From Prevotella sp. (GTDB lineage Bacteria; Bacteroidota; Bacteroidia; Bacteroidales; Bacteroidaceae), in assembly GCA_017475265.1 (NCBI GenBank), contig JAFVFY010000070.1, positions 1 to 54,703 on the forward strand: DNA of 54,703 nucleotides, read 5' to 3'. Positions 6,183-34,358 of this stretch are shown here, one piece after another. Both the position numbers and the translations under genes were made by a program. Position 1 is the first letter of the stretch. Every line of letters starts with the position of its first letter. Under the pieces are notes generated by a model. It saw only the letters and a program-made list of their open reading frames with translations. It made no database searches and was not told where the DNA came from.

Positions 6183-6312
6183 AGTCTAAGGTCTGAAGTC
6201 TAAAGTCCGAAGTCTAAAGTCTGAAGTCTAAGGTCTAAAGTCCGAAGTCTAAGGTCTAAAGTCCGAAGTCTAAGGTCTGAAGTCTAAAGTCCGAAGTCTA
6301 AGGTCTAAAGTC
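6183..6312. repeat. 7-base tandem array (AGTCTAA-type, about 18 units) upstream of the WbqC-like gene
   Basis: The sequence is built almost wholly of 7-base units: AGTCTAA, GGTCTGA, AGTCCGA, AGTCTGA, GGTCTAA. It runs for about 130 bases and stops about 16 bases before the ATG of the WbqC-like gene, so it fills that gene's leader. I see no standard promoter between the array and the start codon. Confidence 0.9.
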
Positions 6313-6327
6313 AACGTACTAAAGTCC

Positions 6328-7008
6328 ATGACCGCGCTGCTTTCCACCACTTATTTCGGTCCGGTGCAGTGGTATCAGAAGCTGTACCGCTATAACTGTG
6401 TGCTCATAGAGCAGCATGAGACCTTCCAGAAGCAGACCTATCGTAACCGCTGCCTCATTGCCACCACCCAGGGGGTACAGGCGCTAACTGTGCCCATTGA
6501 ACATTCACCATTGACCATTGACCATTCGGCTACGCGCAGCAATAATGGTAAATGTTCAATGGTCAATGGTCAACGTTCAATGGTCAATGTTCAATCAATT
6601 CGTCTCTCCGACCACGGTGAATGGCGGCGGCAGCATTGGCAGGCGATACAGTCGGCTTACGGCGAATCGCCTTTCTTCGAGTATTACGAGGACGACCTGC
6701 GGCCTTTCTTTACCGAGCGGCGGTGGGAGCTGCTTCTGGACTTCAACGATGCCATCTGCCGGAAGATGTGCGAGCTGATAGACATACATCCTAAAATCAA
6801 ACGCACCACCGAGTACCTCAAACCTCAAACCTCAAACCAGATAGATTTCCGCGACGTCATCCGTCCCAAGCACCCCCTATCTGATCCCGAGTTCTGTGCC
6901 AAGCCTTATTATCAGGTGTTCGCTCAGAAAAATGGTTTCCTATCCAATCTCAGCATCCTCGACCTCCTGCTGAACATGGGGCCGGAGAGTATCTTCTTTC
7001 TCCGCTGA
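6328..7008 (+). CDS. WbqC-like family protein with in-frame repeat insertions
   Basis: 226 residues. The N-terminus (STTYFGPVQWYQKLYRYN) and the block SDHGEWRRQHWQAIQSAYGESPFFEYYEDD are typical of the WbqC family, named from an O-antigen cluster; its biochemical role is not settled. Two stretches are foreign-looking. Residues about 57-90 are encoded by inverted copies of an AATGGTC-type heptamer array, and a segment reading LKPQTSN is encoded by a TCAAACC heptamer array. Both keep the frame open and fall between conserved blocks, so they probably extend surface loops. A 15-base-stem terminator follows at 7122. No partner gene is adjacent on the same strand. Confidence 0.8.
   Translation: MTALLSTTYFGPVQWYQKLYRYNCVLIEQHETFQKQTYRNRCLIATTQGVQALTVPIEHSPLTIDHSATRSNNGKCSMVNGQRSMVNVQSIRLSDHGEWRRQHWQAIQSAYGESPFFEYYEDDLRPFFTERRWELLLDFNDAICRKMCELIDIHPKIKRTTEYLKPQTSNQIDFRDVIRPKHPLSDPEFCAKPYYQVFAQKNGFLSNLSILDLLLNMGPESIFFLR
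6496..6595. repeat. Inverted pair of AATGGTC-type 7-base arrays inside the WbqC-like gene
   Basis: The left arm (6496-6527) reads as the reverse complement of the right arm (6544-6595). Both are made of 7-base units such as AATGGTC and AATGTTC. They are separated by a 16-base centre. The whole insert is translated in frame. Confidence 0.85.
6815..6838. repeat. TCAAACC-type 7-base array inside the WbqC-like gene
   Basis: Just over three units of the same CTCAAAC/CTCAAAT heptamer that recurs at 16423, 18853 and 33992. It is translated as LKPQTSN. Confidence 0.85.
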
Positions 7009-7121
7009 CATAGTTTGCTCCGTCCAAACCCACACTTTGCCCGTACCTTTCTATCCTTTTGCTCGTATCTTTCTGTCAACCTCCAGAAAGCTGCAACCTC
7101 TATGTAAACCTTGAATAATGA

Positions 7122-7158
7122 ATTCCGGGCCGTGCAACCAATATGCACGGCCCGGAAT
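7122..7158. terminator. Bidirectional terminator between converging genes
   Basis: A perfect 15-base stem (7122-7136 with 7144-7158) with a 7-base loop sits between the ends of the WbqC-like gene (plus) and the giant secreted protein (minus). T-tracts are weak on both sides, but position and stem strength argue for shared termination. Confidence 0.7.
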
Positions 7159-7179
7159 CTTCAATTGTCAATCTCCAGT

Positions 7180-10100
7180 CTACTTCACAACCTGCTTGCG
7201 ACCATTGATGATGTAGAGACCCTTCTTCGGGTTCTGCACTTTCTGACCGTTGAGGTTGTAGATGGCACCGTCGTTGACAGTCTCAACAACTACATTGCTG
7301 ATGCCAGTAGTAGGATTCTCAACACCGAAGTACTTGAGCTGGAAGTTATCCCAGATGACCCACTGCGTGTTCGTCGAAGCGGTGATACCGATGTACATCA
7401 TACCGTCATCCTTCACCTCGAAGTTGATGGGCTCGATGGTGTACAGGCCGTTGGTGAACGAAGCTGAGGCATCGCTCATGCCGTTCTCACTGCCAGTCTT
7501 TGCAGGAACGTCGGCGTTGACTTCGTTTGCGAAGAACTGAGGAGCTGCGGGAGCATCGCCCTCGAACTCATCCTGACGATAGAAGCCCTGTGCAGTCAGC
7601 TGGTAGAATCCGGCGGGAGCATCGCTGATGGTCTGCATGATGGTGAACGTCGAGTGGAAGCTCTCAGCGCAGTTGTTCACGTTGTTACCACCACTGAGGT
7701 TCTTGTTCGTGCAGTCCTCGCTGACAATCCAAGCCTCGGCGTTACGAGCGTCGTTGCGGTTGAAGTTCTGAGCAACGATGAGACCTGTGGCATCGACGGG
7801 AGCATCCTTCGTAGCTACTGACAACTCCTCCAAGAGCTGGGCTCTCACACCGTCCTTCGTGACAATGATGAACTCACGCGGCGTGTCGCTCAGCACGAGG
7901 TTGTTGTCCTTGTCGATGTTGATGTACTTGCCACCGTTGGGCTCGAGGATGTAGAATCCGAAGCCCTGATACTCAAGTGCCCATCCCCATTCGCTGCTGT
8001 CCATGTAGAGGTTTTCGCCGAGGAAGTGACTGGTGTCACCGTTGTACACACGACTGTCGATGGTCACGGTGCGGCTCTCGGAATATGGAGTAAGGGTCAG
8101 GTCGAGACCTGCCTCGTTGACGATACCGCGTGTGCCCCAGTCGTGGCCGGCGGCCATCTTCAGACCGCTCTCAACGTCGATGATGTAGTAGTCACCGGCG
8201 GTGAGGTCGATGTACCAGTTAGCCTTCTTGAAGCCGGCGATGAGATCCTTCAGGTTGCCGATGACGGCCTCCAGCTCAGAGATGTTAATCATCTTGCTGT
8301 CAACAGCCTGTTCAGCGGCATAGACGAAAAATTCCAACGCCTCTTTGCCTTCGGTCTTGGTCTCGTCGGCTAAGAGAGCCTTTGCCTCGGCTATGACGGC
8401 TTTCAGCTCTTCCTGATCCTGGGCAAATACCTCCTTGGCGGTGGTGAACCATGTCAGCTGATAGATCTGGATGGTGTGCCAGTTGGTGCTCTTCTCGGTG
8501 TCCTTACCCATGCCAAGCTTAATGTTACCATCGGTTACCTCCACGTCGAACTGACGGAAATCGTTCTCTGTGGTTGAGGTAGCGATACGAGCCGAGATAT
8601 ACTCCTTCTCCTCGTTGGCGAAGACGTAGGCCACATCCGTAGCGCCATCCTCCATAGTACACTCGAAGCCGTCACGCTGAGATGTTGAGAAGGCGTTGCC
8701 ATAGAAGCCCACCTTATACTTACCGTTGGTCAGGCCAGTGATGTCCTGATAAATGATGGTGCCAGTGCGATTACCGTTAGTCTCGTAGCACTCTGCCATC
8801 TGAGCGGTGCGTCCGTCGTAGGTGGTGATGGCGGGAGCAAACTGTGTAGCACAGACACCAGCGTCAGAGCCGTCGAACTTCTTCCATCCGTTGGTAGCCA
8901 CCTTTGCGGTCTCGTCCTTCTCCTGGTCGGCGTTGTCGAGCTTGTACTGGTCAACAGCGGTCTGCAGGGCAGCCTTCTGCTCGTCGGAAGGCTCGGCAAT
9001 GCCCTGAGCCTCGCCGATGGCAGCAATCAGCTTGCCAACAGCTACGCCATCCTCCTCGGCGAGAGCCTGGGCAGCAGCGATAGCATCAGCCCACTCGTTG
9101 TTGATAGTGAACTCGTAAGCCTTGCCGTCCTCGAAGTCGAGGTCAGCGGTCTGGGCACCATTGCCACCGTTGTTGAAGATAATCTTCTCAGGAGCAGCCT
9201 CAGCCTTGAAGCTGATCATCCAATCGTTGCCACCATTGCCAGGTGTCATCTCTTTGCCTGGCCAGTCGCCGAGGAACTTGACAGCGGTTTCACCGTCGCC
9301 AGTCCAAGCGTAGGCATAGGCTTTCTCCCAACCAGCGTTGGTGGTGAAGGTAGCAGTGTAAGTGTTAAGATTAGAAGGAATGACAGCAACCTGCTTGATA
9401 ATCATGCCCTTCTTGACCTGGAACACGATGTAGCCAGTACCATTCTCAGCGGGAGTGACGCTGTTCACAACAATCTCAGCACCGGAAGCGATGGTGGTCT
9501 CACCAGTCACAGCCTCAATACCATCGATAGTGGCGGTAGCGCGAGGATCTGTCAGCGTCTCGTCGGAAGAACCGTCACCGATAGCCCAGATAATCTCCTT
9601 GTCTGTTGCATTCTCAGCATCGTAAACGATGATGACCTTATCGCCTTCATTCAAGCCATCGATAGCCATTTCCTTGTTGCTTGGGCACTTCAGACCACCG
9701 TTATCAGCCACGTTGCCATTGATGCGGTCTGAACGACGCCATACATGGCACACCTCGGGCAGCACGCTACCCTCGGCCCACTCGTAGCCCTTGTAGTCCT
9801 GACGCTTGCTGTCAGTCTTTTCGGAATTCTCCCAGCCGTAGAAGGCCTGTCCGTTAGCGGCACTACCGTTCTTGTTGGCAGGATTCTCACCAGCGTCAGC
9901 GGCAGCCTCGAAGTCATAGACAATAGCATTCTCGGGGAATACAATGCGCTTCTCAGGAATTACGCCAATCTCCTTGAAGTCAGAAGGATCGAAGGTAATC
10001 GTAATGTCATAGAGACCTTCGCCACCAACATAGTCGGTAGTGATTACCCAGTTGGTTGATCCGTCGCCTTCGGGATACCATGTGCTCTCGCCCTCAATGT

Positions 10101-12789: not shown

Positions 12790-12866
12790 ACGCTTTTTTT
12801 AGTTAATAATAAAGGTTAATAAAATAAGTTTTGTTTATATTCTCCTATATGCAATCGTTCTAACGG

Positions 12867-12899
12867 GCAAAGATAGGGATTTTCTGTGAACTGGCCAAA
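12867..12899 (-). promoter_or_regulatory. Promoter of the giant secreted protein, -33 flanked by a dyad
   Basis: On the minus strand TTTG (12899-12896), 20 bases, then TATCTTTG (12875-12868). The -33 box is bracketed by GTGAA and TTCAC arms. The same arrangement recurs at 46877-46926, and a related one at 52364 and 54631. Confidence 0.75.
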
Positions 12900-12965
12900 T
12901 TATTTCACTTTTTTTTATTATTCAAGTTCCATAATGGTAAAAGAGTATTTACGAATTTTGCTATT

Positions 12966-13598
12966 TTATGACGACCTTCTTGCCACTGCGGATGTAGATG
13001 CCCTTCTTGAATTGAGAATTGAGAATTGAGAATTAACTTTGCGGCCCTGCAAGTCGTAGATGCCTGACGGCTGATCCTTGACGGACAGGACAGGCTGGAT
13101 GCCGGTAGGGTCAGTGGAGTCAGTGACGACCAGAAGACCCATGTAGTTATTGAAGAGGGTGGATAAACCATGCATCCTCAGCAGGTAGACACCAGGCTGC
13201 AGGGTTCCGGCGTAATAGAGGCACCTGAGGTCGAACTCTGTGTCCTTTGAGCCGTAGAGAACCTGTAAAGAGGACGAATTCACCGGGTTGAAGGAGCTGA
13301 CGGGTAATACCGCTCCATCCTTCATCTCGCCTAGGATGACCTGAGCCTCTACCGTCTCATGTACAACACCCGACGTCACCTTGGCGCGACAAGTGAAGTC
13401 GATGTCCTCGTCGGCAGCAAACGTGTATACAGGCACCTTGTCGATGTTCTCCAGCGTATAGGCGGGTATCTTCTCCACCTTTGCCTTCGCACCGGCATCG
13501 TCGATGGTGACGCACAACTCGTTGTCACCCGTGCACACCTTCCACTCGTCGCCGTCCTGCAAACGGTAGCAGAGGCGAACGGTCTGTACCTTTGGCAT
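12966..13598 (-). CDS. Truncated secreted-protein fragment whose C-terminal tail is out of frame
   Basis: 210 residues from the ATG at 13598 (a TTG at 13610 is also possible). There is no signal peptide, and the N-terminus begins within what looks like a beta-sandwich, so the 5' part of a larger secreted protein is probably missing. Near the end the tail motif GIYDLQGRKV is present. A 26-base AATTCTC array (13009-13034) then shifts the frame and the product ends in RRASTSAVARRSS. The expected continuation, KKGIYIRSGKKVVIK followed by TAG at 12963-12961, is intact in another frame. The gene ends just upstream of a 175-base intergenic region and begins 15 bases after the phosphatase gene, so it could be read through from it. 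Confidence 0.6.
   Translation of the reverse strand: MPKVQTVRLCYRLQDGDEWKVCTGDNELCVTIDDAGAKAKVEKIPAYTLENIDKVPVYTFAADEDIDFTCRAKVTSGVVHETVEAQVILGEMKDGAVLPVSSFNPVNSSSLQVLYGSKDTEFDLRCLYYAGTLQPGVYLLRMHGLSTLFNNYMGLLVVTDSTDPTGIQPVLSVKDQPSGIYDLQGRKVNSQFSILNSRRASTSAVARRSS
13009..13034. repeat. 7-base tandem array (AATTCTC, 3.7 units) at a tail frameshift
   Basis: 26 bases made of three full AATTCTC units plus five bases (minus-strand reading). 26 is not a multiple of three. Adding one unit (33) or losing two (12) would put the downstream KKGIYIRSGKKVVIK tail back in frame. Confidence 0.9.
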
Positions 13599-13613
13599 CG
13601 TCTCGGTCAAGCG

Positions 13614-14081
13614 CTAAATGGAGAAATACTGTATTCTATCCAGCAGGCACTGGCAGCCTTCGAGGACGTCGCGCCAGGTGGCCTCGAAATTACCAGTGTA
13701 CCAGGGGTCGGCCACGTCGCCGGGGCGGTCGGTGTAGTCGAGCAGTTTATGGATTTTCCCTTCGGGGTCTCCGCCGCAGATGCGGTTCATGTTGCGGATG
13801 TTCCATTCGTCCATGCCGATGAGCAGGTCGAAGCGGTCGTAGTCGCCGCGTGTCATCTGCCGTGCCGTCTTGCCCTTACACGAGATGCCATGCTCGGCCA
13901 GCTTGCGACGGGCGGGAGGATAGACTTCGTTGCCTATCTCCTCCGTCGATGTTGCTGCCGACTCGATAAAGAACTCGTCCTCGAGCCATGAACGCTTGAC
14001 GAGGTCCTTCATCACAAACTCTGCCATCGGACTGCGACAGATGTTGCCGTGACAGACGAAGAGTATTCGGGTCTTATTCAT
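13614..14081 (-). CDS. Low-molecular-weight protein-tyrosine phosphatase
   Basis: 155 residues, the usual size. The phosphate-binding loop with the catalytic cysteine, CHGNICRS, is at residues 10-17. The general-acid aspartate is in the C-terminal VADPWYTG. These cytoplasmic enzymes remove phosphate from tyrosine in proteins; in many bacteria they balance polysaccharide-export kinases, but no such kinase is nearby. The start overlaps the end of the TSCPD gene by 8 bases, so the two are translationally linked in a minus-strand operon that begins with the HD/fRMsr fusion. Confidence 0.95.
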   Translation of the reverse strand: MNKTRILFVCHGNICRSPMAEFVMKDLVKRSWLEDEFFIESAATSTEEIGNEVYPPARRKLAEHGISCKGKTARQMTRGDYDRFDLLIGMDEWNIRNMNRICGGDPEGKIHKLLDYTDRPGDVADPWYTGNFEATWRDVLEGCQCLLDRIQYFSI

Positions 14082-15410: not shown

Positions 15411-17861
15411 ATGAAGAGAAAGTTATTCCTAGGCCTGACGATGGTCGCCACTGTGGCGGCACAGGCCATTGAAGTGGGCGACACCGCCCGAATGGTAGAC
15501 CTCGACGAGGTCATTGTAGTAGCTCAGCCCAAGGAGCAGGTGCGCTTGAGGCTGCAGCCGGTGAGCAGCAGCGTGTTCGACAGCGAGCAGATGAACCGCT
15601 TGGGCGTGCGCGACCTCAACCAGTTGTCACAGTATGTCCCCTCGTTCGACATGCCGGCCTACGGCTCGCGCATCACCTCGACAATGTACATGCGCGGCAT
15701 AGGGGCGCGTATCAACAACACGTCGGTGGGCGTGTACTACGACAACATACCGCTCATGTCGAAGTCGGCCTTCAACAACCATTTCTACATGCTCGACCGT
15801 GTGGACGTGCTGCGCGGTCCGCAGGGAACGCTCTACGGCATGAACACCGAGGGCGGACTGGTGCGTATGTACTCGAAGAACCCCATGAACTATCAGGGAA
15901 CGGACATCCGCTTAGGACTGGGCTCGGGACTGTATACGAACGCCGAGGTGGCACACCACCACCGTCCCAGCGAGCGCCTGGCGTTCACCGTCGCCGGCTT
16001 CTGGCAGGGGCTGCGCGGATTCTTCAACAACCAGAACTTCGACGAGAAGAACGACAAGTCGAAAGAGGCTGGCGGCAAGGTGCGCCTCGTCTATGACCCC
16101 ACGAAACGGCTGCGGATGGACTGGACGGCCGACTACCAGTGGGTGATGCAGAACGGGTTCGGCTATGGCGAGTACGACGTGGAGGAGGACTGCACACACG
16201 ACCCCGCCACGACCATCATGAACGGTTACCGCCGCACGATGCTCAACACGGGACTGACATTCTCCTACGACATGCCGCAGCTGCTCTTCACCTCGACCAC
16301 CAGCTACCAGTACCTGAAAGACCGCATGATGATGGACCAAGACTACGTCACACCCGACTACCTGCAGCTGGAACAGCGACAGAAGATGAACGCCGTGACG
16401 CAGGAGTTCGTGCTGCGCAGCAAACCTCAAATCTCAAATCTCAAATCTCAAATCTCAAACATCGACTGGCAGCACGCCACGGGACTCTTCGGCTCCTACC
16501 AGTGGCTGCGTACCGACGGTCCGGTGGCCTTCGGCGATGCCATCACCGGTCCCATTGGCCGGGCTATTACCTCGGCCATGACCAATGCTATGAAGCAGAG
16601 CATGATGAACAGCATGATGCAGCAGATGATGGAGCAGGGAATGCCCGAGGCTGCGGCAAAGGCGGCTGCGGAGAAGTCTGCACAGGCTGCCGTGGAGAAG
16701 GCGGGTATCACCATGAGTGCAGAGATGGCCGTGCCGGAATATTTCCACACACCGGAAGCCAATTTCTCCATATTCCACGAGTCGAACATCCTGTTCAACG
16801 AACGGCTGAAGCTGACCGCCGGACTGCGCCTGAACATTGACAACACAAAGATTGACTACCACTCTCTGGCCTACATGAACATGACCGGCGGAACGGCACA
16901 GCGACAAGCCACCTACCACCTCACGTCGCTGGTGGAGAACTCGCTGTCGAAGACCTACACGCAGCTGCTGCCGAAGGTGGGACTGACGTACATGCTGAAC
17001 GATAATCTGGGCAATGTCTACGCCCTGGTGTCGAAGGGCTACCGCACGGGTGGATACAACATCCAGATGTTCTCCGACATCCTTCAGACCGACCTCAACG
17101 CCAACCAGCAGAACGCCATGCGCGGCGACTATGACGTGCCCCACACCGATGCCGACTACGACAATATCAACGAGACCATCAGCTATAAGCCCGAGGAGTC
17201 GTGGAGCTACGAGCTGGGCACCCACCTGAACCTCTTCGACGGACGTGTGAAGGCCGACGCCGCCGTGTTCTTCACGCAGATACGCAACCAACAACTTTCC
17301 GTCATGGTGGGCAACTATGGCTATGGCCGCGCTATGGTGAACGCTGGTAAGAGCTACAGCTGCGGTGCGGAGCTGGCCCTGCGTGGAACGGCTGTAGGCG
17401 ACCACCTGACATGGGCCATGACCTATAGCTTCACCAACGCCCGCTTCCGTGAATACGACGACCAGTTAGAGGCGAAAGGGCACACTACGACGGACTATCG
17501 GGTGATAAGCTACAAGGACAATTACGTGCCCTTCATCCCCCTGCACCAGCTGTCGCTTGCTGCTGACTACCGAATCGATACAGGCTGCCGCATCCTGCGT
17601 AGCGTCACCCTCGGAGCAAACATGCAGGGCAAGGGCAAGACCTACTGGGAGGCCGACAACGAACTGTCACAGAACTTCTACGCTACGCTTGGTGCACACG
17701 CTGCCTTTGGCCTGGGAGCCGTGACCGTCGATGTATGGGGACGTAACCTCACCGACACCCGCTACAACACATTCCTAGTCTACAGCAAGACCACCGACCA
17801 GAACTTCGCACAGCGAGGCCTGCCTATACAGGTGGGGTGTGATGTGAGGATACACCTATAA
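15411..17861 (+). CDS. TonB-dependent outer-membrane receptor
   Basis: 816 residues. A signal peptide (MKRKLFLGLTMVATVAAQA) is followed by a TonB-box-like stretch (VDLDEVIVVAQ). A plug domain comes next (QLSQYVPSFDM, MRGIGARINNTSVGVYYDNIP, VDVLRGPQGTLYGMNTEGG), then a 22-strand-type barrel. It lacks the carboxypeptidase-like N-domain of SusC proteins, so it is closer to siderophore/cobalamin-type receptors; the ligand is unknown. Two oddities stand out. A CTCAAAT heptamer array (16423-16460) is translated in frame as KPQISNLKSQISN. A following methionine- and alanine-rich stretch (encoded about 16590-16730; MMNSMMQQMMEQGM) is predicted to sit in a loop. No SusD partner follows. Confidence 0.92.
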   Translation: MKRKLFLGLTMVATVAAQAIEVGDTARMVDLDEVIVVAQPKEQVRLRLQPVSSSVFDSEQMNRLGVRDLNQLSQYVPSFDMPAYGSRITSTMYMRGIGARINNTSVGVYYDNIPLMSKSAFNNHFYMLDRVDVLRGPQGTLYGMNTEGGLVRMYSKNPMNYQGTDIRLGLGSGLYTNAEVAHHHRPSERLAFTVAGFWQGLRGFFNNQNFDEKNDKSKEAGGKVRLVYDPTKRLRMDWTADYQWVMQNGFGYGEYDVEEDCTHDPATTIMNGYRRTMLNTGLTFSYDMPQLLFTSTTSYQYLKDRMMMDQDYVTPDYLQLEQRQKMNAVTQEFVLRSKPQISNLKSQISNIDWQHATGLFGSYQWLRTDGPVAFGDAITGPIGRAITSAMTNAMKQSMMNSMMQQMMEQGMPEAAAKAAAEKSAQAAVEKAGITMSAEMAVPEYFHTPEANFSIFHESNILFNERLKLTAGLRLNIDNTKIDYHSLAYMNMTGGTAQRQATYHLTSLVENSLSKTYTQLLPKVGLTYMLNDNLGNVYALVSKGYRTGGYNIQMFSDILQTDLNANQQNAMRGDYDVPHTDADYDNINETISYKPEESWSYELGTHLNLFDGRVKADAAVFFTQIRNQQLSVMVGNYGYGRAMVNAGKSYSCGAELALRGTAVGDHLTWAMTYSFTNARFREYDDQLEAKGHTTTDYRVISYKDNYVPFIPLHQLSLAADYRIDTGCRILRSVTLGANMQGKGKTYWEADNELSQNFYATLGAHAAFGLGAVTVDVWGRNLTDTRYNTFLVYSKTTDQNFAQRGLPIQVGCDVRIHL
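16423..16460. repeat. CTCAAAT 7-base array inside the TonB receptor gene
   Basis: Five successive 7-base units, nearly perfect, translated without breaking the frame. Gain or loss of one unit would frameshift the receptor. Confidence 0.9.
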
Positions 17862-17866
17862 TTTAT

Positions 17867-17989
17867 AAACAACGAATTACACGAATTTCACGAATTGCAC
17901 GAATTTGCTTTTTATTTCACGAATTGCACAAGATTTGTGAAATCCAGAATAATTCGTGAAATTCGTGCAATTCGTGAAATTCGTTGTTT
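17867..17989. repeat. 9-base-unit repeat element with AACAACGAATT ends (family N)
   Basis: The 12-base inverted ends AAACAACGAATT (17867-17878) and its complement (17978-17989) enclose units of 'CACGAATTn' every 9 bases, in both orientations. The element lies exactly between the stop of the TonB receptor and the stop of the S9 peptidase, whose stop codon it touches. It can form a very long hairpin and may end transcription from both sides. Confidence 0.85.
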
Positions 17990-20436
17990 TATTTAAGATA
18001 ATCTTCGAAGTACTGAGTGATGCGTTCGTGCAAGTGTACGCTCGCATGCCCCCTCATGTTGTGACCCTCACCGGGATAGACGTAGAAGTCGGGCTGGGTG
18101 CCCGCCTCGTTGCAGGCCTTGATGAAGGAAAGGGCGTGCTGGGGAACAACGGTCGGGTCGTTATAGCCGATGATGATTTGCAGCTTGCCCTTCAAGTCTT
18201 TTGCCTTGCTGATGAGGCTGGTCTTGGCATAGCCGTCAGGGTTTGTCTGCGGGGTGTCCATGTAACGCTCACCATACATCACCTCGTACCACTGCCAGTC
18301 TATGACGGGGCCGCCGGCAACGCCAACCTTGAAAACATCAGGATAGTTGGTCATCAGCGAGATAGTCATGAAGCCACCGAAGCTCCAGCCGTGTACGCCG
18401 AGGCGGTCGGCATCGACGTATGGCAGGCTTTTCAGGAACTCCACACCCTTCATCTGGTCCTGCATCTCTATCTGTCCGAGCTGTCGGAAAGTGGCCTGCT
18501 CGAAGTCACGGCCACGGTTCTCACTTCCACGGTTGTCGAGGGTGAAGACGATGTATCCCTTCTGCGCCATGTAGGTTTCCCAGGAGCGGCTCTGCCAGTG
18601 CCAGGAGGCTTCCACATTGTGGGCGTGAGGACCGCCGTAGACGTAAACGATGGTGGGGTATTTAACCTCACCCCCAGCCCCTCTCCCAAGGAGAGGGGAG
18701 TGGTTACCTTTGTCGTCAGTTGGAAGTTGGTCGTAGAGCTGGCGGGGGACTACCATGCGGTAGTAGAGGTCGGTCTGGCCGTCGGCGGCTTTGATGGTGC
18801 CGCTGAGGAAACCAGGCTGCTGGTAGTCGGCCCAGGGGTCGGGAGCAGTCAGAAGATTTGAGGCTTGAGGTTTGAGATTTGAGATTTGGGTGATGTCGAT
18901 GGTATTGGGCTGTGTGGGCGTTTGCCACTTGTCGTAGAACAGAGTGCCGGAGTTGGAGAGGCTGGCACGGTGGATGCCTTCTCCGTTGTCAAGGGATATA
19001 CGTTTGCCGGTGTTGATGTCTACGGCATAGAGGTTGCGCTGCAAGGGGTGCTTCTCGTTGGAAGCGATAATGATGCTTTTGGTCTTCTTGTTGAAGCCTA
19101 ACACGTCGAGGACTACCCAGGGGCCGCTGGTGATTTGGCGGGCTAGCACGGGGCCTGAGCGGGCTGGCACGGGGCCTGCCCCTACAGAAGAGAGGTCGAA
19201 GAGGTAGAGGTGGTTATAGCCATCCTTCTGACTCTGGAGGATGAACTTGGTGCTGTCCCAAGGAAGGAACTGTATGGGGTGCAGAGGCTCTACGTATTTG
19301 TCGGAGGTCTCTCGGTAAAGCTCGGCGAGGCGTTGACCAGTCTGGGCATCGTAGGATACGAGGCGGCAGTCGTTCTGGTCGCGGTTCAGTTCCTGCAGGT
19401 AGATGGTCTTGCCGTCGGGACTCCAGGCAAGGTTGGTGAAGAAACAGGGCTGCGCATCTAGCTCAGCATACGAGACTGGGGGAGTCTGGAGGTAGACGGT
19501 CTTATCCGTGCGGAGGTCGTAGACGCCGATGGTGACCAAATGGGTGTTCATGCCGGCCATGGGGTATTTGTCAGGCTCCATAGTGGCGATTAGTAGGTCA
19601 CGCTTCCCAGCGTGACAATCATCGTTAGGGGTTTCACTGCTCCCACGCTGGGAAGCGTGGGCTACTACGGGGGGAATGTTCACCTGCGGATAATCGGTGA
19701 CCATGCTTTGATCCATGCGGTAGAAGGCAAGCTGCTGGCCATCGGGGCTCCAGAAGGTACCCTTCGAGATGCCCCACTCATCGCGGTGCACACTCTGCCC
19801 ATAGACAATCTCTCGGGAACCGTCGGTGGTAAGCTGGTGTTTGTGGCTGTCAGCATCGATGACCCACAGCTGGTGGTCCTCCACATAGGCCGTGGCGCGA
19901 CTCTGCGGGTTCCAGTCGTTGGCTTCCTGTCCGGAGAGGCTGTCCTGCCAGACGATTTCCTTCTTCTTGAAGTCCACAAGCGTAAAAGCCTTCTTGTTTC
20001 CCACGGCCACGATGGGCTGATCGGGGTAAGGGAAGGATGCCGACGAGAGGTGACGCACGTAGTACGTGTCGTCGCTCTTGGCCCAGGTGTTAATGTCGTC
20101 GAGGGTGAAGAGCACCGTCTCCTTGCCCGTCCTAGGGTCGATGAGCGAGCATTGCTCCACATCGCAGTGGACGAGCTGGTCGCCCCACCACTCCAAGAAC
20201 ATGTTCTTTGGGCGGAGGTTGTGGAAGTTCGTGCCGCCGAAGTTCAGGTCCTCGAGCGTAAAAAGTTTCTGCTGTGCATACATAGAAGAAACGAATAAAT
20301 GAATGACAAGGAAAATTCCCACCGTGGGAATGAATCGTTCCCACCGTGGGAATATTTTATTCCCAGCGTGGGAACGAATTGTTCCCACCGTGGGAACATT
20401 TACTATGTTCCGAGATTGCAAGCCTGATAGTCTCAT
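17989..20436 (-). CDS. S9 family dipeptidyl peptidase (DPP-IV type) with several in-frame repeat insertions
   Basis: Up to 815 residues. The N-terminal half is a DPP-IV-type beta-propeller. The C-terminal half is the alpha/beta-hydrolase with catalytic Ser in GWSFGGF, Asp in GYNDPTVVP and His in GEGHNMRG. The hydrophobic VGIFLVIHLFVSSMYAQQ serves as signal peptide, so the enzyme acts in the periplasm or at the surface, removing N-terminal dipeptides. The start is uncertain. The ATG at 20436 is 32 bases after the methyltransferase gene and would translate four palindromes before the signal peptide; a GTG just before the hydrophobic stretch is the alternative. Four different repeat types interrupt the propeller and linker: 19597-19661, 19138-19178, 18853-18889 and 18678-18698. 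All are in frame. Confidence 0.9.
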   Translation of the reverse strand: MRLSGLQSRNIVNVPTVGTIRSHAGNKIFPRWERFIPTVGIFLVIHLFVSSMYAQQKLFTLEDLNFGGTNFHNLRPKNMFLEWWGDQLVHCDVEQCSLIDPRTGKETVLFTLDDINTWAKSDDTYYVRHLSSASFPYPDQPIVAVGNKKAFTLVDFKKKEIVWQDSLSGQEANDWNPQSRATAYVEDHQLWVIDADSHKHQLTTDGSREIVYGQSVHRDEWGISKGTFWSPDGQQLAFYRMDQSMVTDYPQVNIPPVVAHASQRGSSETPNDDCHAGKRDLLIATMEPDKYPMAGMNTHLVTIGVYDLRTDKTVYLQTPPVSYAELDAQPCFFTNLAWSPDGKTIYLQELNRDQNDCRLVSYDAQTGQRLAELYRETSDKYVEPLHPIQFLPWDSTKFILQSQKDGYNHLYLFDLSSVGAGPVPARSGPVLARQITSGPWVVLDVLGFNKKTKSIIIASNEKHPLQRNLYAVDINTGKRISLDNGEGIHRASLSNSGTLFYDKWQTPTQPNTIDITQISNLKPQASNLLTAPDPWADYQQPGFLSGTIKAADGQTDLYYRMVVPRQLYDQLPTDDKGNHSPLLGRGAGGEVKYPTIVYVYGGPHAHNVEASWHWQSRSWETYMAQKGYIVFTLDNRGSENRGRDFEQATFRQLGQIEMQDQMKGVEFLKSLPYVDADRLGVHGWSFGGFMTISLMTNYPDVFKVGVAGGPVIDWQWYEVMYGERYMDTPQTNPDGYAKTSLISKAKDLKGKLQIIIGYNDPTVVPQHALSFIKACNEAGTQPDFYVYPGEGHNMRGHASVHLHERITQYFEDYLK
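18678..18698. repeat. Palindrome CCCCTCTCC-caa-GGAGAGGGG inside the S9 peptidase gene
   Basis: A 9-base-pair hairpin with its flanks (about 18663-18706) is translated as GNHSPLLGRGAGGEV between the conserved parts of the peptidase. C-rich and G-rich inserts of this look occur in many bacterial genomes as dispersed repeats. Confidence 0.75.
18853..18889. repeat. CTCAAAT-type 7-base array inside the S9 peptidase gene
   Basis: About five units of the heptamer (read on the minus strand), translated as QISNLKPQASN. It is the same family as the arrays at 6815, 16423 and 33992. Confidence 0.85.
19138..19178. repeat. Tandem 20-base repeat inside the S9 peptidase gene
   Basis: GCGGGCTRGCACGGGGCCTG occurs at 19138-19157 and again at 19159-19178. 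It is translated in frame as GPVPARSGPVLAR. The insert is unlike any part of the family. Confidence 0.8.
19597..19661. repeat. Pair of 20-base palindromes (nnCACGCT-4-AGCGTGnn) inside the S9 peptidase gene
   Basis: Palindromes at 19597-19616 and 19642-19661 have 8-base arms and a TCCC/GGGA loop. They are translated in frame. The same palindrome design is found in the GH78 gene at 35417-35436. Confidence 0.8.
20315..20397. repeat. Four TTCCCACCGTGGGAA palindromes at an exact 22-base pitch
   Basis: 17-base palindromes start at 20315, 20337, 20359 and 20381, each exactly 22 bases from the next. Arms are nearly identical (TTCCCAC/GTGGGAA; the third has AGCGTG in the centre). They lie between the methyltransferase stop and the S9 signal peptide. 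Either they are translated as part of a long S9 N-terminus or they form a regulatory array two helical turns apart. Confidence 0.9.
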
Positions 20437-28469: not shown

Positions 28470-28498
28470 CACTATCGTCCCTTTCACTCCCTCAAAAA

Positions 28499-29161
28499 AT
28501 GATTGACCTCCAAGGAATCACCAAGAGCTTCGGCTCACTTCAAGTACTCAAAGGCATCGACCTCCACATCGACCGCAGCGAAGTGGTGAGCATCGTAGGC
28601 CCCAGCGGAGCAGGCAAGACCACACTGCTGCAAATCATCGGAACCCTCGACCGCCCTGACAGCGGCAGCGTGCACGTCGATTCCGTCGACGTGACTTCCC
28701 TCTCCCAGAAAGCCCTCGCCGACTTCCGCAACCGCCACCTAGGCTTCGTATTCCAGTTTCACCAGCTATTGCCAGAGTTCACCGCCCTGGAGAACATCAT
28801 GATTCCTGCCTACATTGGCGGCACCGGAAATAAACAGGCGAAGGAACGCGCACGGGAACTACTACAGTTCATGGGGCTCAGCGACCGCGCCTCCCACAAG
28901 CCCGCACAGCTCTCTGGAGGCGAGAAACAGCGTGTTGCAGTGGCACGCGCACTCATCAACAGCCCCGCCGTCATCCTCGCCGACGAGCCGTCAGGTAGCC
29001 TTGACACACGTAACAAGCAAGAACTGCATCAGCTCTTCTTCGACCTTCGCGACCGCTACGGGCAGACCTTCGTCATCGTCACACACGACGAAGAACTCGC
29101 TGGTCTCACCGACCGTACCCTGCACATGCGTGACGGACAGTGGTGGGGACAACCCGCCTAG
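28499..29161 (+). CDS. LolD-like ABC transporter ATP-binding protein
   Basis: 220 residues. Walker [10 protein letters not shown], the Q-loop in [17 protein letters not shown], the signature [15 protein letters not shown], Walker [13 protein letters not shown] and the switch HDEE are all present. The [15 protein letters not shown] block fits the LolD/MacB branch, which drives lipoprotein release or related export. No permease (LolC/E) is adjacent, which is common in Bacteroidota, so the partner is unknown. It probably shares the antiporter transcript. Confidence 0.93.
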
Positions 29162-29282
29162 TCCTAAGGACAGTGACCGATGAACTCTTGGTGGGACAAA
29201 TAATTATTTGACATAAAGGGGGTTATTTGCGGCAAACAAAGTTAATTTTCTTGAAATATGTGCCTGTTTCAGAATTAATTAC

Positions 29283-29290
29283 TAATTTTG
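29283..29290 (+). promoter_or_regulatory. -7 box for the first FKBP gene
   Basis: TAATTTTG, 44 bases before the ATG at 29335. No strong -33 match was found. Confidence 0.55.
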
Positions 29291-29334
29291 CACGCTTTTT
29301 GAAACGTATTACACATTATTATATATAAAGAAGC

Positions 29335-29940
29335 ATGGATAAACTTAGCTACGCACTTGGTTTGGGCATCGGTCAGCAGCTGGCCCAGATGGGTGCTACA
29401 GGCTTGAAGGTAGCCGATTTTGCACAGAGTATCAGCGACGTGCTGGAGGGACGCGAACTGAAGATGTCGCACCGCGAGGCACAGCAGATTGTGCAGCAGT
29501 ATTTTGCACAGCAGGAAGAGAAAATCAACAAGGAACGCATGGCCCAGGGCAAGGTGCACAAAGAGGCCGGCGAGAAATACCTGGCTGAGAACGGGAAGAA
29601 AGCCGACGTGGTGACGCTGCCCAGCGGACTGCAGTATCAGGTGCTGCGCGAGGGCAACGGCAAGAAGCCTAAAGCCACTGACTCGGTGAAGTGCCACTAC
29701 GAGGGATTCCTCATCGACGGAACTGTCTTCGACAGCAGCGTGCAGCGCGGAGAACCCGCCGTGTTCGGACTGCAGCAGGTCATCGCAGGATGGACGGAAG
29801 GATTGCAACTGATGCAAGAGGGAGCCAAATACCGTTTCTTCATTCCCTACCGCCTGGCTTACGGAGAGGGCGGAGCAGGACAGATGATTCCCCCCTTCGC
29901 TACACTCATCTTCGACGTAGAACTCATCGAAGTGTTATAA
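29335..29940 (+). CDS. FKBP-type peptidyl-prolyl isomerase (Mip/FklB-like), no signal peptide
   Basis: 201 residues. An N-terminal helical dimerisation region (YALGLGIGQQLAQMG.., QQEEKINKERMAQG) is followed by an FKBP domain (about 105-201) with [44 protein letters not shown] and [22 protein letters not shown]. It lacks a signal peptide, unlike its two neighbours, so it should act in the cytoplasm. It is the first of three tandem paralogues and is separated from the second by a 31-base inverted repeat that may limit read-through. Confidence 0.93.
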   Translation: MDKLSYALGLGIGQQLAQMGATGLKVADFAQSISDVLEGRELKMSHREAQQIVQQYFAQQEEKINKERMAQGKVHKEAGEKYLAENGKKADVVTLPSGLQYQVLREGNGKKPKATDSVKCHYEGFLIDGTVFDSSVQRGEPAVFGLQQVIAGWTEGLQLMQEGAKYRFFIPYRLAYGEGGAGQMIPPFATLIFDVELIEVL

Positions 29941-29956
29941 CCCATAGCCTCCTTAG

Positions 29957-30121
29957 CCCCCTAAGTTAGGGGGTTGGGGGTCTGAACAGAAACAAGCCTT
30001 ACCCACCTAAGTTAGGGGGTCTGAACATACGCAAAACAAATAACAATCAATATTATTAACAATTAAAACGAGGGAAAGAACACCGAAACTGTTCAGACCC
30101 CCAACCCCCTAACTTAGGGGG
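29957..30121. repeat. 31-base perfect inverted repeat plus a partial copy between FKBP genes
   Basis: 29957-29987 and 30091-30121 are exact reverse complements over 31 bases. Each contains the palindrome CCCCCTAAGTTAGGGGG. A shorter degenerate copy lies at about 30002-30026. A transcript could fold into a very long hairpin, or each palindrome could fold on its own. This may end or weaken transcription from the first FKBP gene. Confidence 0.9.
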
Positions 30122-30136
30122 CAAAGAAACAAAACA

Positions 30137-30985
30137 ATGAAAAAAATTACTTACGTGGCCGCTATGGCCATCGCAGCTGCTACACTCGCATCGTGCAGCG
30201 GAAACGCCCCCAAGGCAAGTCTTAAAAACGAAGTTGACACCCTGAGTTACGCTATTGGCGTGGCACAGTCACAGGGCCTTAACGAGTACATCTCACAGCG
30301 TCTCGGCGTGGACACTGCCTACATGGCAGAGTTCGTACAGGGTGTCATCGACGGTGCCAATGCCGGTGATGACAAGAAGAAGACCGCTTACTTCGCAGGT
30401 ATTCAGATTGGACAGCAGATTCAGGGACAGATGGTTCCGGGCATCAATGCAAACATCTTCAGCAACGACAGCACCAAGAACGTTTCGCTTGACAACATTC
30501 TTGCCGGTTTCATCAGCGCCATCCTGAAGAAGGACATGAAGATGACCGTCGAGGAGGCCGACAGCACGGCTAACGCCATTGCTGCCAACATCAAGTATGG
30601 TGACAGAAAGGTGAAGAATGAGGAGTACCTCGCCGAGAACGCCAAGAAGGACAGCGTCGTCACCCTGCCCAGCGGTGTGCAGTACAAGATTCTGAAGGAA
30701 GGTAACGGTGCACAGCCTGTTGATAGCAACCAGGTTGTGGTGAACTACGAGGGTAAGCTCATCGACGGTACCGTCTTCGACAGCAGCTACCAGCGCAACC
30801 AGCCCGCCACATTCGGCGTTAACCAGGTCATCGCTGGATGGCAGGAGGCCCTGAAGCTCATGCCCGTCGGCTCGGTATGGGAAATCTACATCCCTCAGGA
30901 GCAGGGCTATGGCACACGCGACATGGGTAACATTCCTCCCTACTCAACACTTATCTTCAAGGTTGAACTTCTGGAAATCAAATAA
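30137..30985 (+). CDS. FKBP-type peptidyl-prolyl isomerase lipoprotein
   Basis: 282 residues. The signal peptide ends in the lipobox LASC with the lipidated Cys at 20. An N-terminal helical domain (DTLSYAIGVAQSQGL, YFAGIQIGQQIQGQM) precedes an FKBP domain from about 180 ([65 protein letters not shown]). It is a membrane-anchored folding helper for exported proteins. It is 10 bases from the next paralogue, so the two are surely co-transcribed. Confidence 0.95.
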   Translation: MKKITYVAAMAIAAATLASCSGNAPKASLKNEVDTLSYAIGVAQSQGLNEYISQRLGVDTAYMAEFVQGVIDGANAGDDKKKTAYFAGIQIGQQIQGQMVPGINANIFSNDSTKNVSLDNILAGFISAILKKDMKMTVEEADSTANAIAANIKYGDRKVKNEEYLAENAKKDSVVTLPSGVQYKILKEGNGAQPVDSNQVVVNYEGKLIDGTVFDSSYQRNQPATFGVNQVIAGWQEALKLMPVGSVWEIYIPQEQGYGTRDMGNIPPYSTLIFKVELLEIK

Positions 30986-30995
30986 GCACTGACTT

Positions 30996-31934
30996 ATGAA
31001 GAAAGTGATAGCACTGGCACTCGCCGCCCTGGTGGTGGGTGCCTCTTTCAGCACTTTGGATGCTAAGAAAAAGAAGGACAAGAAGAAGGATGCCCCTGTG
31101 GCAGAGGTACTTGCTCCCGTGGTACTCGCCAATGGTTGCGACTCTATGAGCTATGCCGCCGGCGGTGCCCTGACCAACGGTCTCATTCCCTACCTGCTGC
31201 AGCAGGGTGTTGATACTGCCTACATGGCAGACTTCGTCACCGGTCTGCGCCAGGGAATTGCCCAGCAGAAAATCGCCATGAGCGACCCTCAGGAGAAGGC
31301 CCGCATTTTAGGTGGGCAGATAGCTAACCAGCTGATGCAGGGTATGCTGCCCAACGTGAGACGTGATTTCACCGATACTCCTGACACACTCATCGAGGAT
31401 GTGTTCTTCCGTGGATTCACCGATGCCGTCATGGCTGACACCACCGTTATGACCCAAAAGCGGGCCGAGGCACTCTTCAAGGAGAAGCAGAAGGTGAACA
31501 AGGAGGCCAAGACGGAGAAGCTGACCAGAGCCGGACGTGAATTCCTGGAGGAGAACGGAAAGAAGGAAGGAGTCATCACTACCGCCAGCGGCCTGCAATA
31601 CAAGGTGCTGACGGAAGGCGACGGCGACGTGCCCCAGCGCACCGACAAGGTGAAGGTGCACTATGAAGGCCGCCTCATCGACGGTACCGTATTCGACGCC
31701 TCGTCGAAGCACGGCACAGAACCCGCTAGCTTCCGCGCAGACCAGGTCATCAAGGGATGGACTGAGGCTCTCACCATGATGCCCGTAGGCTCGAAGTGGC
31801 AGCTCTTCATTCCCCAGCACCTCGCTTACGGCGAGCGCCAGACAGGACAGATTCCTCCCTACTCCACCCTTATCTTTGACGTGGAGCTGGTGGATATAGA
31901 AAAGCCCGAAGCAAAGACCGAGGAGAAGAAATAG
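30996..31934 (+). CDS. Secreted FKBP-type peptidyl-prolyl isomerase
   Basis: 312 residues. The signal peptide [23 protein letters not shown] is followed by a lysine-rich stretch (KKKKDKKKD). The N-domain ([22 protein letters not shown]) and a C-terminal FKBP domain ([64 protein letters not shown]) resemble the gene before it. There is no lipobox cysteine, so it is probably periplasmic and soluble. It ends only 2 bases before the Lrp-type regulator gene. Confidence 0.94.
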
Positions 31935-31936
31935 AA

Positions 31937-32410
31937 ATGGAGAAAATCGACAACCTGGACAAGAAAATACTGAGCATCCTCTCGAAGAACGCCCGCATAC
32001 CCTTCAAGGACGTGGCTGAGGAGTGCAACGTGTCGCGTGCCGCCGTGCACCAGCGTGTGCAGCGGCTCATCGAGAGCGGCGTCATCACCGGCAGCGGTTT
32101 CGACGTGAACCCCATGTCGCTAGGCTACCACACATGCACCTACGTGGGCATCACGCTGGAGCGCGGCTCGATGTACAAGGAGGTGGTGAAGCGCCTGGAG
32201 CTGATACCCGAGGTGGTGGAGTGCCACTTCACCACAGGCCCTTACACCATGATGGCCAAGCTCTACGCCCGCGACAATGAACAGCTCATGCACCTGCTCA
32301 ACGGACAGCTGCAGGAGATTCCCGGCGTGGTATCTACCGAGACGCTCATATCACTTGAACAGAGTTTTAAGCGCGATATTCCCGTACACTTCGTAGAGGA
32401 AGAGGAATAG
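31937..32410 (+). CDS. Lrp/AsnC-family transcriptional regulator
   Basis: 157 residues. The N-terminal winged helix-turn-helix (LDKKILSILSKNARIPFKDVAEECNVSRAAVHQRVQRL) and the C-terminal RAM/effector-binding fold (VGITLERGSMYKEVV.., VVECHFTTGPYTMMAKLYA) are complete. Lrp regulators usually sense amino acids. It abuts the C26-M19 hydrolase fusion with no gap (stop then ATG), so that amino-acid- or peptide-releasing enzyme is a plausible target. Confidence 0.94.
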   Translation: MEKIDNLDKKILSILSKNARIPFKDVAEECNVSRAAVHQRVQRLIESGVITGSGFDVNPMSLGYHTCTYVGITLERGSMYKEVVKRLELIPEVVECHFTTGPYTMMAKLYARDNEQLMHLLNGQLQEIPGVVSTETLISLEQSFKRDIPVHFVEEEE

Positions 32411-34306
32411 ATGATCAGTTTTGACTTTAACGCCCGACTGGCCGCCCTTCACCAGCGTTTCCCCGCTGCTGACAGGCGGCCAGTTGTCGGTATTACCGGA
32501 AACTACGGCGAGCAGACATGCAAGCTCGGAGAGGGATATTATAAACAGATAGTCCGTGCTGGCGGTACGCCGCTCATCATCCCGCCGCTCTCCGACGAAG
32601 CAACCATTCTGGAGACGCTGGAACGTGTCGACGCCCTGCTGCTCAGCGGCGGTGCCGACATCAACCCGCTCTTCATGGGAGAGGAACCGCAGCCACGCCT
32701 CGGCAGCATCAATGCCGAGCGCGACCTCCCCGAACTGCTCATTACCCGACTGGCCTTCAACCGACAACTACCCATACTGGGCATCTGCCGAGGCATACAG
32801 ACCCTCGCCGTGGCCCTGGGCGGCAAGGTCGCACAAGACATTGAAAGTGAAAAGGGAATAGTGAAAAGTGAAGCTTCCGCTGTAAAACATTCCCAGGATG
32901 CCGACCGCTCAGAACCCACTCATAGCATAGTCCTCGCTGACGACTCCATGCTAAGGGACATCTTCGGCGGCAACAGTATCTTCGTCAACTCCTTCCACCA
33001 CCAGGCCGTGGCCTCTCCCAGCTCCCACCTGAAAGTCACTGCTACCGCCACCGATGGCGTCATTGAGGCTGTGGAGAGCACGGAGCACAAGCCCATCATC
33101 GGCGTACAATGGCATCCCGAATGCATGGGCGACAACGGTCTGCCGCTCTTCCAATGGCTCGTCCGTGAGGCAGAGACATTCCGAAAGGTGAAAGACCTGC
33201 ACAACCGTGTGCTCACCCTCGATACCCATTGCGACACCCCCATGCTCTTCCCCCAGGGCATCGACTTCGCCACCCGTGACGACCGTCTGCTCGTTGACCT
33301 GCATAAGATGACCGAGGGACGGCTCGACGCCACCATCATGGTGGCCTACCTGCCACAGACAGGCTGGAACAACGAGGACGGTAAATGGAAAGTAATGACC
33401 GACAACCTTGCTCCCACGCCTAAGGCTTACGCCGACGGCATCTTCGACCGTATTGAGCAGATTGTAGCTGCCAATGGCGATCACCTCGCCCTTGCCCGCA
33501 CTCCCGCCGACCTCTGGGCCAACAAACGGGCGGGTCGCAAGAGCATCATGCTCGGCATTGAGAACGGCCTGGCCCTGGAGGATGACCTGGCCAACCTCGA
33601 CCACTTTGCCCGCCGTGGCGTGGTCTACATCACCCTCTGCCATAATGGCGACAACAGCCTCTGCGACTCTGCCAAGCTTCTGGGAGCGCAGTCGTCCTCG
33701 CCAGCAAAAATGGGAGCGCGGTCGTCCTCGCCTGCAAAACACACGTGGGGCGGCGTCAGTCCTTTCGGTGCCGATGTCATCCGCCGCATGAACGAACTGG
33801 GCATTATGGTAGACCTGAGCCATGCCCATGAGCGCAGCTTCTACGATGCCCTCGACATCAGCCGTCTGCCCATCGTCTGCAGCCACTCCTCCGCACGTGC
33901 TCTCTGCGACCATCCACGAAACCTCACCGACGACCAGATGCGCGCACTCGCCAACAAAGGCGGCGTGTGCCAGATAACCCTCTACCCCGGTTTCCTCAAA
34001 TCTCAAATCTCAAACCTCAAACCTCAAATCTCAAATCTCAAATCTCAAATCTCAGAAGCCACCATATTCGACGCCATGGCCCACCTCGACCATGCCATCG
34101 ACGTGATGGGCATAGATCACGTAGGCCTGGGCACCGACTTCGACGGCGACGGTGGTGTTCCCGGTCTGGCCAATGCCAGCGAGCTGACGAACTTCACACG
34201 TCAGCTTCTCGCCCGCCGCTACAGCGAGGACGACATCCAAAAGATATGGGGTGGCAACTTCCTCCGCGTCATGGAGGAAATACAGGCAGCCAACTATGCA
34301 CTATGA
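32411..34306 (+). CDS. Fusion of C26 gamma-glutamyl hydrolase-like and M19 membrane dipeptidase-like domains
   Basis: 631 residues. Residues about 20-260 are a class I amidotransferase-like C26 domain of the PuuD type (LSGGADINPLF, nucleophile Cys in GICRGIQ, His/Glu in GVQWHPECMG). Residues about 270-630 are an M19 dipeptidase with zinc ligands in DTHCDTP, Glu in LGIENG, VDLSHAHE, CSHSSAR and GLGTDFDGDGG. It should cleave gamma-glutamyl and dipeptide bonds. There is no signal peptide. Three insertions look foreign: a 30-base pair of repeats (33681-33740), a CTCAAAT array (33992-34056), and a terminal AACTATG array in which the stop codon falls. All keep the frame. Confidence 0.9.
   Translation: MISFDFNARLAALHQRFPAADRRPVVGITGNYGEQTCKLGEGYYKQIVRAGGTPLIIPPLSDEATILETLERVDALLLSGGADINPLFMGEEPQPRLGSINAERDLPELLITRLAFNRQLPILGICRGIQTLAVALGGKVAQDIESEKGIVKSEASAVKHSQDADRSEPTHSIVLADDSMLRDIFGGNSIFVNSFHHQAVASPSSHLKVTATATDGVIEAVESTEHKPIIGVQWHPECMGDNGLPLFQWLVREAETFRKVKDLHNRVLTLDTHCDTPMLFPQGIDFATRDDRLLVDLHKMTEGRLDATIMVAYLPQTGWNNEDGKWKVMTDNLAPTPKAYADGIFDRIEQIVAANGDHLALARTPADLWANKRAGRKSIMLGIENGLALEDDLANLDHFARRGVVYITLCHNGDNSLCDSAKLLGAQSSSPAKMGARSSSPAKHTWGGVSPFGADVIRRMNELGIMVDLSHAHERSFYDALDISRLPIVCSHSSARALCDHPRNLTDDQMRALANKGGVCQITLYPGFLKSQISNLKPQISNLKSQISEATIFDAMAHLDHAIDVMGIDHVGLGTDFDGDGGVPGLANASELTNFTRQLLARRYSEDDIQKIWGGNFLRVMEEIQAANYAL
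33681..33740. repeat. Tandem 30-base repeat inside the C26-M19 fusion
   Basis: Two copies (33681-33710, 33711-33740) with three differences are translated as GAQSSSPAKM and GARSSSPAKH. They fall between conserved M19 blocks. Confidence 0.85.
33992..34056. repeat. CTCAAAT/CTCAAAC 7-base array inside the C26-M19 fusion
   Basis: About nine 7-base units, translated as LKSQISNLKPQISN repeated with a period of seven residues. This is the longest coding copy of this array family in the window. Confidence 0.92.
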
Positions 34307-34358
34307 ACTATGCACTATGAACTATGCACTATGCACTATGAACTATGAACTATGAACT
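34292..34358. repeat. AACTATG/CACTATG 7-base array over the end of the C26-M19 fusion
   Basis: Nearly ten units. The stop codon TGA of the fusion is formed inside the array (34304-34306), so a change in unit number would alter the protein's last residues. The array ends 4 bases before the stop of the lipoprotein gene on the other strand. Confidence 0.9.

Follow-up and report, generated by a model that had tools for sequence, protein, structure and literature searches.

Contig JAFVFY010000070.1 of Prevotella sp., a stretch of 54,703 nucleotides referred to below as the window (contig C104 of genome G000, which comprises 4.75 Mb in 135 contigs), carries dispersed tandem arrays of 7-base units. 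These arrays probably belong to a set of dispersed heptamer repeats, specific to the Prevotella-like lineage, that has spread, family by family, through each genome. They behave like a fast-changing repeat family: they lie at the edges of genes and in protein loops that tolerate them, where they mostly stay in frame and rarely resemble a switch. It is marked by an excess of period 7, by unit families specific to a genome, by short tags and inverted pairs, by steps of 7 nt, by replaced and homogenised units, and by retention of the reading frame.

The nearest relatives of the window, as judged by comparison of the C26-M19 protein that it encodes, are Prevotella metagenome-assembled genomes (MAGs); the best named match, at 81% identity, is locus L031 of Prevotella sp. 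RGIG9954, whose genome is called G040 here. Arrays in the window were called with Tandem Repeats Finder, and periods 2-60 were scanned separately against Markov-1 shuffles. All the arrays listed in an earlier note on this DNA were recovered, plus one at 32844-32872, and five shuffles of the window gave zero arrays. That note had proposed to scan the whole genome for unit lengths. In 40 stretches of G000 totalling 723,386 bp, period 7 proved to be the commonest (75 of 207 arrays; 0 in shuffles), with 1 array for periods 2-6 together, 5 for period 8, 23 for period 9 and 26 for period 22, and in the G040 sample (623,108 bp) periods 7 and 22 tied with 58 arrays each. The density of heptamer arrays was 10.4 per 100 kb in G000, 6.1 per 100 kb in 80 M19 loci from named Prevotellaceae, and 4.3 and 1.8 per 100 kb in two groups of close sisters. 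Fourteen genomes from other Bacteroidales families had a single heptamer array in 168 kb, and the 50 kb of E. coli K-12 that were sampled had none. The heptamer excess belongs to the Prevotella-like lineage. An excerpt of PMC4692102, citing a 2007 study, explains a heptamer excess by the polymerase active site; this would favour independent local slippage, in which arrays grow in place from chance seeds as replication slips by seven bases, any sharing of families being due to chance, composition and drift. Since the excess is missing from the other Bacteroidales and from E. coli and is uneven within the genus, it cannot be put down wholly to a generic property of polymerases.

Slippage of this kind is also at odds with the unit families, whose concentration far exceeds that of random heptamers and which, from one genome to the next, are nearly all-or-none. 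When exact matches to three consecutive units were sought in 21 genomes, (CTCAAAT)3 was found 30 times in G000 (25 sites), 0 times in G040, and 7 times in total in 3 of the 20 other genomes. (CTCTCTC)3 was found 35 times each in G041 and G047, 21 times in G049 and 0 times in the other 18 genomes, its reversed control being the identical sequence and hence no control; (TTCACTC)3 was present in 14 of the 21. Among 179 arrays from 38 genomes, both arrays had the same unit class in 246 of 3276 within-genome pairs, as against 243 of 12655 between-genome pairs and a value of 0.001 for random genomic heptamers. With the two large samples set aside the counts were 8/48 and 34/2032, and when all genomes were given equal weight, label shuffles reached the observed value in 30 of 2000 cases. 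The unit families are non-random and genome-specific. Units lacking G or lacking C made up 61/85 arrays in G000, 48/58 in G040 and 57/84 in other genomes (40-47% expected from G+C), figures that come from few families and so are not independent.

The arrays and tags of the window, with host genes assigned by Pfam, are as follows.

6183..6326, + strand: AGTCTAA/AGTCTGA/AGTCCGA array, abutting the start codon (6328) of a WbqC-like gene on the upstream side; Tandem Repeats Finder gives it as 6183-6312 with periods 14/21/28; G040 has about 2.8 units there.
6494..6526, - strand: CCATTGA array (Tandem Repeats Finder), left arm of an inverted pair within the WbqC-like gene.
6531..6543, + strand: spacer between the arms, tag-like GCGCAGCAAT, which holds GCGCAGCAA at 6534-6542.
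6544..6595, + strand: AATGGTC/AATGTTC array (Tandem Repeats Finder), right arm of the inverted pair.
6815..6838, + strand: ACCTCAA array, peptide LKPQTSN, within the WbqC-like gene, where G040 carries another insert.
13009..13034, - strand: AATTCTC array (unit called GAATTGA by Tandem Repeats Finder); the tail KKGIYIRSGKKVVIK is out of frame with DLQGRKV.
16415..16423, + strand: tag GCGCAGCAA, abutting the CTCAAAT array.
16421..16459, + strand: CTCAAAT array (unit called CAAATCT by Tandem Repeats Finder) in a TonB-dependent receptor gene, in frame.
18854..18888, - strand: CTCAAAT-family array (unit called AGATTTG by Tandem Repeats Finder) in a DPP-IV/S9 peptidase gene, in frame.
32844..32872, + strand: AAAGTGA array in the C26 half of the C26-M19 gene; absent from the earlier note and from L031.
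33995..34054, + strand: CTCAAAT array in the C26-M19 gene, in frame; 42 nt longer than in L031 and L032.
34292..34358, + strand: AACTATG/CACTATG array, within which the C26-M19 gene terminates (its stop codon ends at 34306).

The arrays at 6494, 6544 and 6815 all lie within one WbqC-like gene, whose G040 counterpart has an AATCTTC array at the site of the array at 6544-6595. The gene that hosts the arrays at 32844 and 33995 and the start of that at 34292 encodes a C26-M19 peptidase fusion (32411-34306), in which a class-I amidotransferase (C26) is joined to an M19 dipeptidase, and which has relatives in many Prevotellaceae genomes. Folded as RNA, the pair at 6494-6595 was predicted to form a hairpin of -41.5 kcal/mol (z -7.15). 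No Rfam match was found between 5900 and 34700.

Some arrays are preceded by a short tag. In the window, GCGCAGCAA stands 5' of the arrays at 6544 and 16421. Across the 15 genomes used for tag searches, GCGCAGCAA followed within 8 nt by CTCAA occurred at 14 places in G000 (one of them at 16415 in the window) and at 4 in the other 14 genomes, as compared with 3 reversed-control matches over all 15. A related sequence, GCGGTAGCAAAT followed by TTCACT, gave 182 matches in 14 of the 15 Prevotella genomes and 0 with the reversed control. When all unit families were taken together, GYAGCAA was found 5' of 12 of 249 arrays, as against 1.1 expected, and 3' of 2. The GYAGCAA tag is real, but confined to a minority of arrays. 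One universal flank was also sought, and 7-mer enrichment in the flanks gave no single motif; GGCTRCGC was rare there (5 in all, read away from the array, vs about 0.9 expected). The 11-mer GCGGTAGCAAA was discarded as tag evidence: it was found 11 times in 3.06 Mb, as against 1.3 expected from a Markov model, but at least 1 of 200 permuted 11-mers also reached 11. The case for tags therefore rests on the counts of GCGGTAGCAAAT with TTCACT, on excised copies of the tagged element described below, and on the enrichment of GYAGCAA.

Same-family arrays lying at most 300 bp apart (periods 6-12) were more often inverted than direct, with 23 vs 13 pairs in G000, 8 vs 1 in G040 and 13 vs 9 elsewhere. 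Together with the genome-specific families and the tags, these pairs indicate that the arrays are not simply independent products of slippage. As a general account, slippage is improbable, and it is further weakened by the fact that tags are common to non-orthologous loci. We propose that a few unit families (in G000, CTCAAAT/CTCAAAC, CTCTCAA, AATTGAG, AATGGTC and others) have spread through each genome, sometimes carrying a short tag 5' of the array on its C-rich strand, and in many cases paired in inverse orientation round a short spacer. The arrays would come to lie at the edges of genes or in protein loops that tolerate them, gain or lose whole units there, be homogenised or replaced by other units, and finally be lost; where an array lies inside a gene, selection would keep the downstream frame. 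For the spreading step we suggest, tentatively, that existing arrays seed new sites by being copied, most likely through template switching in replication or repair. Short template switches would explain the families, the inverted arms and the homogenisation without an enzyme. The main alternative to template switching would be recognition of the tag by an enzyme, a transposase or another.

Of the tagged elements, GCGGTAGCAAATT(NTTCACT)n is the clearest. It is missing from the window at up to 3 mismatches. It was excised at 30 loci, yielding 31 distinct copies, of which at least 3 locus pairs look homologous between species. Left ends were sharp, the number of units was 4 in 16 copies, 3 in 7, 2 in 3, 1 in 4 and 5 in 1, an inverted partner lay beside 11 of the 31, and none of the 31 was flanked by a direct duplication of 2 nt or more. 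All of this would suit mobile elements that are non-autonomous and depend on an enzyme acting in trans, such as a Y1/HUH (IS200-type) transposase, like the repetitive extragenic palindromic (REP) sequences and bacterial interspersed mosaic elements (BIMEs), as would the GTAG within the tag and a Y1_Tnp (IS200-like) fragment at a contig end of G000 (L128:2-331). Yet, the G000 tag GCGCAGCAA and its partner tag GCGGCAGC lack GTAG, the element is not itself a palindrome, the fragment was the only one of Y1 type found with a loose motif in about 3 Mb and is not linked to arrays, and no clean-ended empty site was obtained. We regard such an element as unlikely.

Copies of the tagged element in phage-type contigs also speak for mobility. 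In IMG/VR, 57 stretches held an exact copy, and 8 of the 10 neighbouring proteins scanned (of 48 listed) matched a PHROG family, several with phage-type functions; annotated phages and plasmids gave just partial matches, in 3 and 2 records, respectively. Among 119 genomes drawn from across the order, the element was found in G000 (4) and in one other genome (1); the draw included just one other genome of the family to which G000 belongs. A dedicated trans-acting system common to bacteria and their phages, which would read GCGGTAGCAAATT and its relatives and add or copy a fixed small number of 7-base units, may also be imagined; in such a templated repeat adder, the unit sequence would be set per genome and replaced over time, the length staying seven. 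We consider it quite improbable. The 39 exact matches to the tagged element in G042, against 1 in G044, had suggested a recent burst; this was dismissed when BLAST gave many variant copies in G044 and G043.

The tag lay within 12 nt of the ATG of a long open reading frame in 8 of the 31 copies (6.6% at random), and 5 of the 31 were spanned by an open frame encoding a SEELRVKSEEFATA-type peptide; in each of these five, the third unit is a variant that does away with a stop. In 30 of 49 viral copies (IMG/VR, L298-L354) an upstream open frame ended in the element, often through the TAG within the tag, and 8 of 31 host copies showed the like; these counts, uncontrolled for chance, are given as a note only, since a 29-codon open frame arises often by chance. 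In L285, around position 1500, the tagged heptamer element is read in frame as an apparent lipoprotein signal peptide (MRKKIVAILIAVANFSLFILHSSLFFACDD, translated by eye).

Comparison of related species showed turnover of these arrays. One loop of the M19 gene carries TTCACTC, TTCCCTC, CTCTCTC, AGTTCAA, AATGGTC or ACTGTCA units, depending on the species; in L066 and L073, which are 91.6% identical, it has TTCACTC and CTCTCTC units, respectively, at equal length. The equal loop lengths seen in 81 M19 orthologs were set aside, as the search took both anchors in a single frame and could give only multiples of 3. Among four sister genomes, 92-94% identical, two have one extra unit at one site, and at another site one genome has GAGAGGT units and another AAAAGCC units. 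At a single gene boundary, three repeats were found: G042 has the tagged element there, G044 a GCGGTAGC start followed by a different middle, and G043 an unrelated inverted heptamer array. The earlier note had held that invariant copy numbers would count against its reading; at the species level they vary, with sister species differing.

One-unit steps between sisters are also what slippage predicts, and seeds for it were found at some sites. The best is M19 site 33995, where L031 has TTCCTGAAATCTCAAGCCTCC, a seed for CTCAAAT (p ~0.001), and retains the near-seed AAATCTCAA, the window being longer by 42 nt. Among 20 hand-picked gain or loss events, the seed of the unit was present in the other allele in 4 (p < 0.05) and missing in 16. 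Plain local expansion fits these 4 events; seeds were rejected as a general rule, and local slippage accounts for some sites only. The seeded events weigh against spread by family, as do several other points. The direction of change is unpolarised for most events, and most genomes compared are MAGs. The tag is on only 12 of 249 arrays, most having no conserved flank. Density is uneven within the genus, six congeners having 11 arrays in total, of which a single 20-kb stretch holds 9; three of these congeners had none. Finally, neither an enzyme nor a donor-recipient pair was demonstrated.

The earlier note had pointed out that four unrelated genes with CTCAAAT arrays share the QISNLKS peptide. 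A 7-nt unit crosses all three frames in 21 nt and so encodes one cyclic heptapeptide whatever the frame. The peptide shared by unrelated genes follows from this arithmetic, and is evidence neither for selection nor about the frame. The note's idea of one generating process, drawn from the shared unit length, survives in a weaker form, carried by the non-random families and by the tags on some arrays.

We then considered whether the arrays act as phase-variable contingency loci, the copy number of a unit that is not a multiple of 3 toggling genes on and off, as the earlier note had suggested for coding arrays. Changes in 7-nt steps would agree with this. In the G000 sample plus window, rough gene calls placed 45 of 85 arrays inside genes and 40 outside; among the latter, gene starts at most 20 nt away were counted 13 times (9% for each random intergenic site). 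A clear coding signal on both sides and on one strand was seen for 20 of the 85 arrays; 5 were too near the end of a stretch to judge, and most of the others had a one-sided signal or none. Fourteen of the 20 were in frame and open, 1 was in frame with a stop elsewhere in its flanks and 5 differed in frame. On inspection, 3 of these 5 lay between a stop and the next start, 1 at a probable gene end, and 1 (L159:12294) was a frameshift within a gene. A second frameshift, found by inspection, is the window array at 13009; it separates ...DLQGRKV from ...KKGIYIRSGKKVVIK. The overall tally is 15 arrays in frame and 2 frameshifted sites. Arrays flanked by a clear coding signal are mostly in frame, and the switch is not the rule.

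The hosts, moreover, include ordinary enzymes besides surface proteins, and many arrays are intergenic. Nor do the arrays qualify as promoter parts: a TAnnTTTG motif was near 2/85 arrays in G000 and 0/58 in G040, no enrichment over the 3.1% of random sites, though the pooled other genomes were enriched (8/84). General phase switching by heptamer arrays is unlikely, and as an explanation of the whole set we hold it very unlikely. At the array at 13009, a conserved-looking C-terminal tail is cut off from its gene (12905-13610) by the frameshift, and one unit more or two units less would, arithmetically, put it back in frame. This tail is a concrete candidate switch. The arrays have no single proven function.

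Recurrence of QISNLKS or of SEELRVKSEEFATA in unrelated proteins should be annotated as repeat insertion and not as a domain. Rickettsia palindromic elements likewise insert into unrelated protein genes without breaking the frame, and are not tandem heptamers.

Heptamer repeats with similar habits are already known in Beggiatoaceae and cyanobacteria. The Prevotella arrays, being tandem 7-base units dispersed in a genome, resemble the short tandemly repeated repetitive (STRR) sequences of cyanobacteria, a likeness aptly drawn in the earlier note; STRR belong to another phylum and probably have other units. The excerpts of PMC2670836 and PMC4748335 used here describe them as dispersed heptanucleotide arrays, some hairpin-forming, and a title in a reference list reports STRR inside an RNase P RNA gene. 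TAACTGA direct repeats occur in Beggiatoaceae, cyanobacteria and some Bacteroidetes (MacGregor 2015, PMC4679880, in excerpt). According to the same excerpt, they too form many dispersed short arrays of a 7-base unit, often adjoin start codons or overlap stop codons (stops limiting their orientation in genes), show 7-nt indels between close strains, and were proposed to be mobile, with no mechanism. The Prevotella arrays differ in their units, in having many families per genome, tags and inverted pairs, and in lying within genes in many cases; the TAACTGA unit (class AACTGAT) does not figure among the families listed for the G000 sample and window. The heptameric repeats of Xanthomonas and Nostoc, in the portion of PMC4692102 consulted, share the 7-base excess found in some bacteria; unlike the Prevotella arrays, they are G-rich, G-quadruplex units and intergenic. 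REP sequences and BIMEs, as excerpted from PMC3733652, are also short, dispersed, tagged and often inverted dimers, whereas the Prevotella element has a heptamer-array body instead of a 20-40 bp palindrome, and GTAG is not conserved across its tags. Same-family inverted pairs, including those of 11 of the 31 tagged copies, correspond to inverted dimers; single copies bearing GCGGTAGCAAATT or GCGCAGCAA are not palindromes with GTAG or CGTC. Among the open-licence papers searched for heptamer repeats in Prevotella and Bacteroidetes, none was found to describe this family. Why the unit is seven bases long, and how heptamer repeats spread, have been open questions since STRR and TAACTGA repeats were described. 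Here, the same sites can be traced across dozens of related species, where replaced units, tags, inverted partners and copies in phages are found; this makes the question testable in culturable Prevotella.

Repeats of other lengths were also noted. At 17872-17984, 9-base arrays form an inverted pair (ACGAATTAC... and AATTCGTGA...) with an architecture like that of the heptamer pairs, and comparable 9-mer pairs occur elsewhere in G000. A palindromic 22-bp repeat (TTCCCACCGTGGGAA...) lies at 20315-20401, period 22 ranking second in the G000 sample and sharing first place in G040. Inverted 11-mer (AGCCGTCATAT) arrays surround a 229-nt interior at three G000 sites with equal spacing (L136:10652-10932, L141:17255-17535 and L144:9683-9974), a structure that looks like a discrete mobile element. 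Finally, a tandem repeat of 53 bp at 45087-45190 is made of GCGCCAGATTATA-type inverted sequences.

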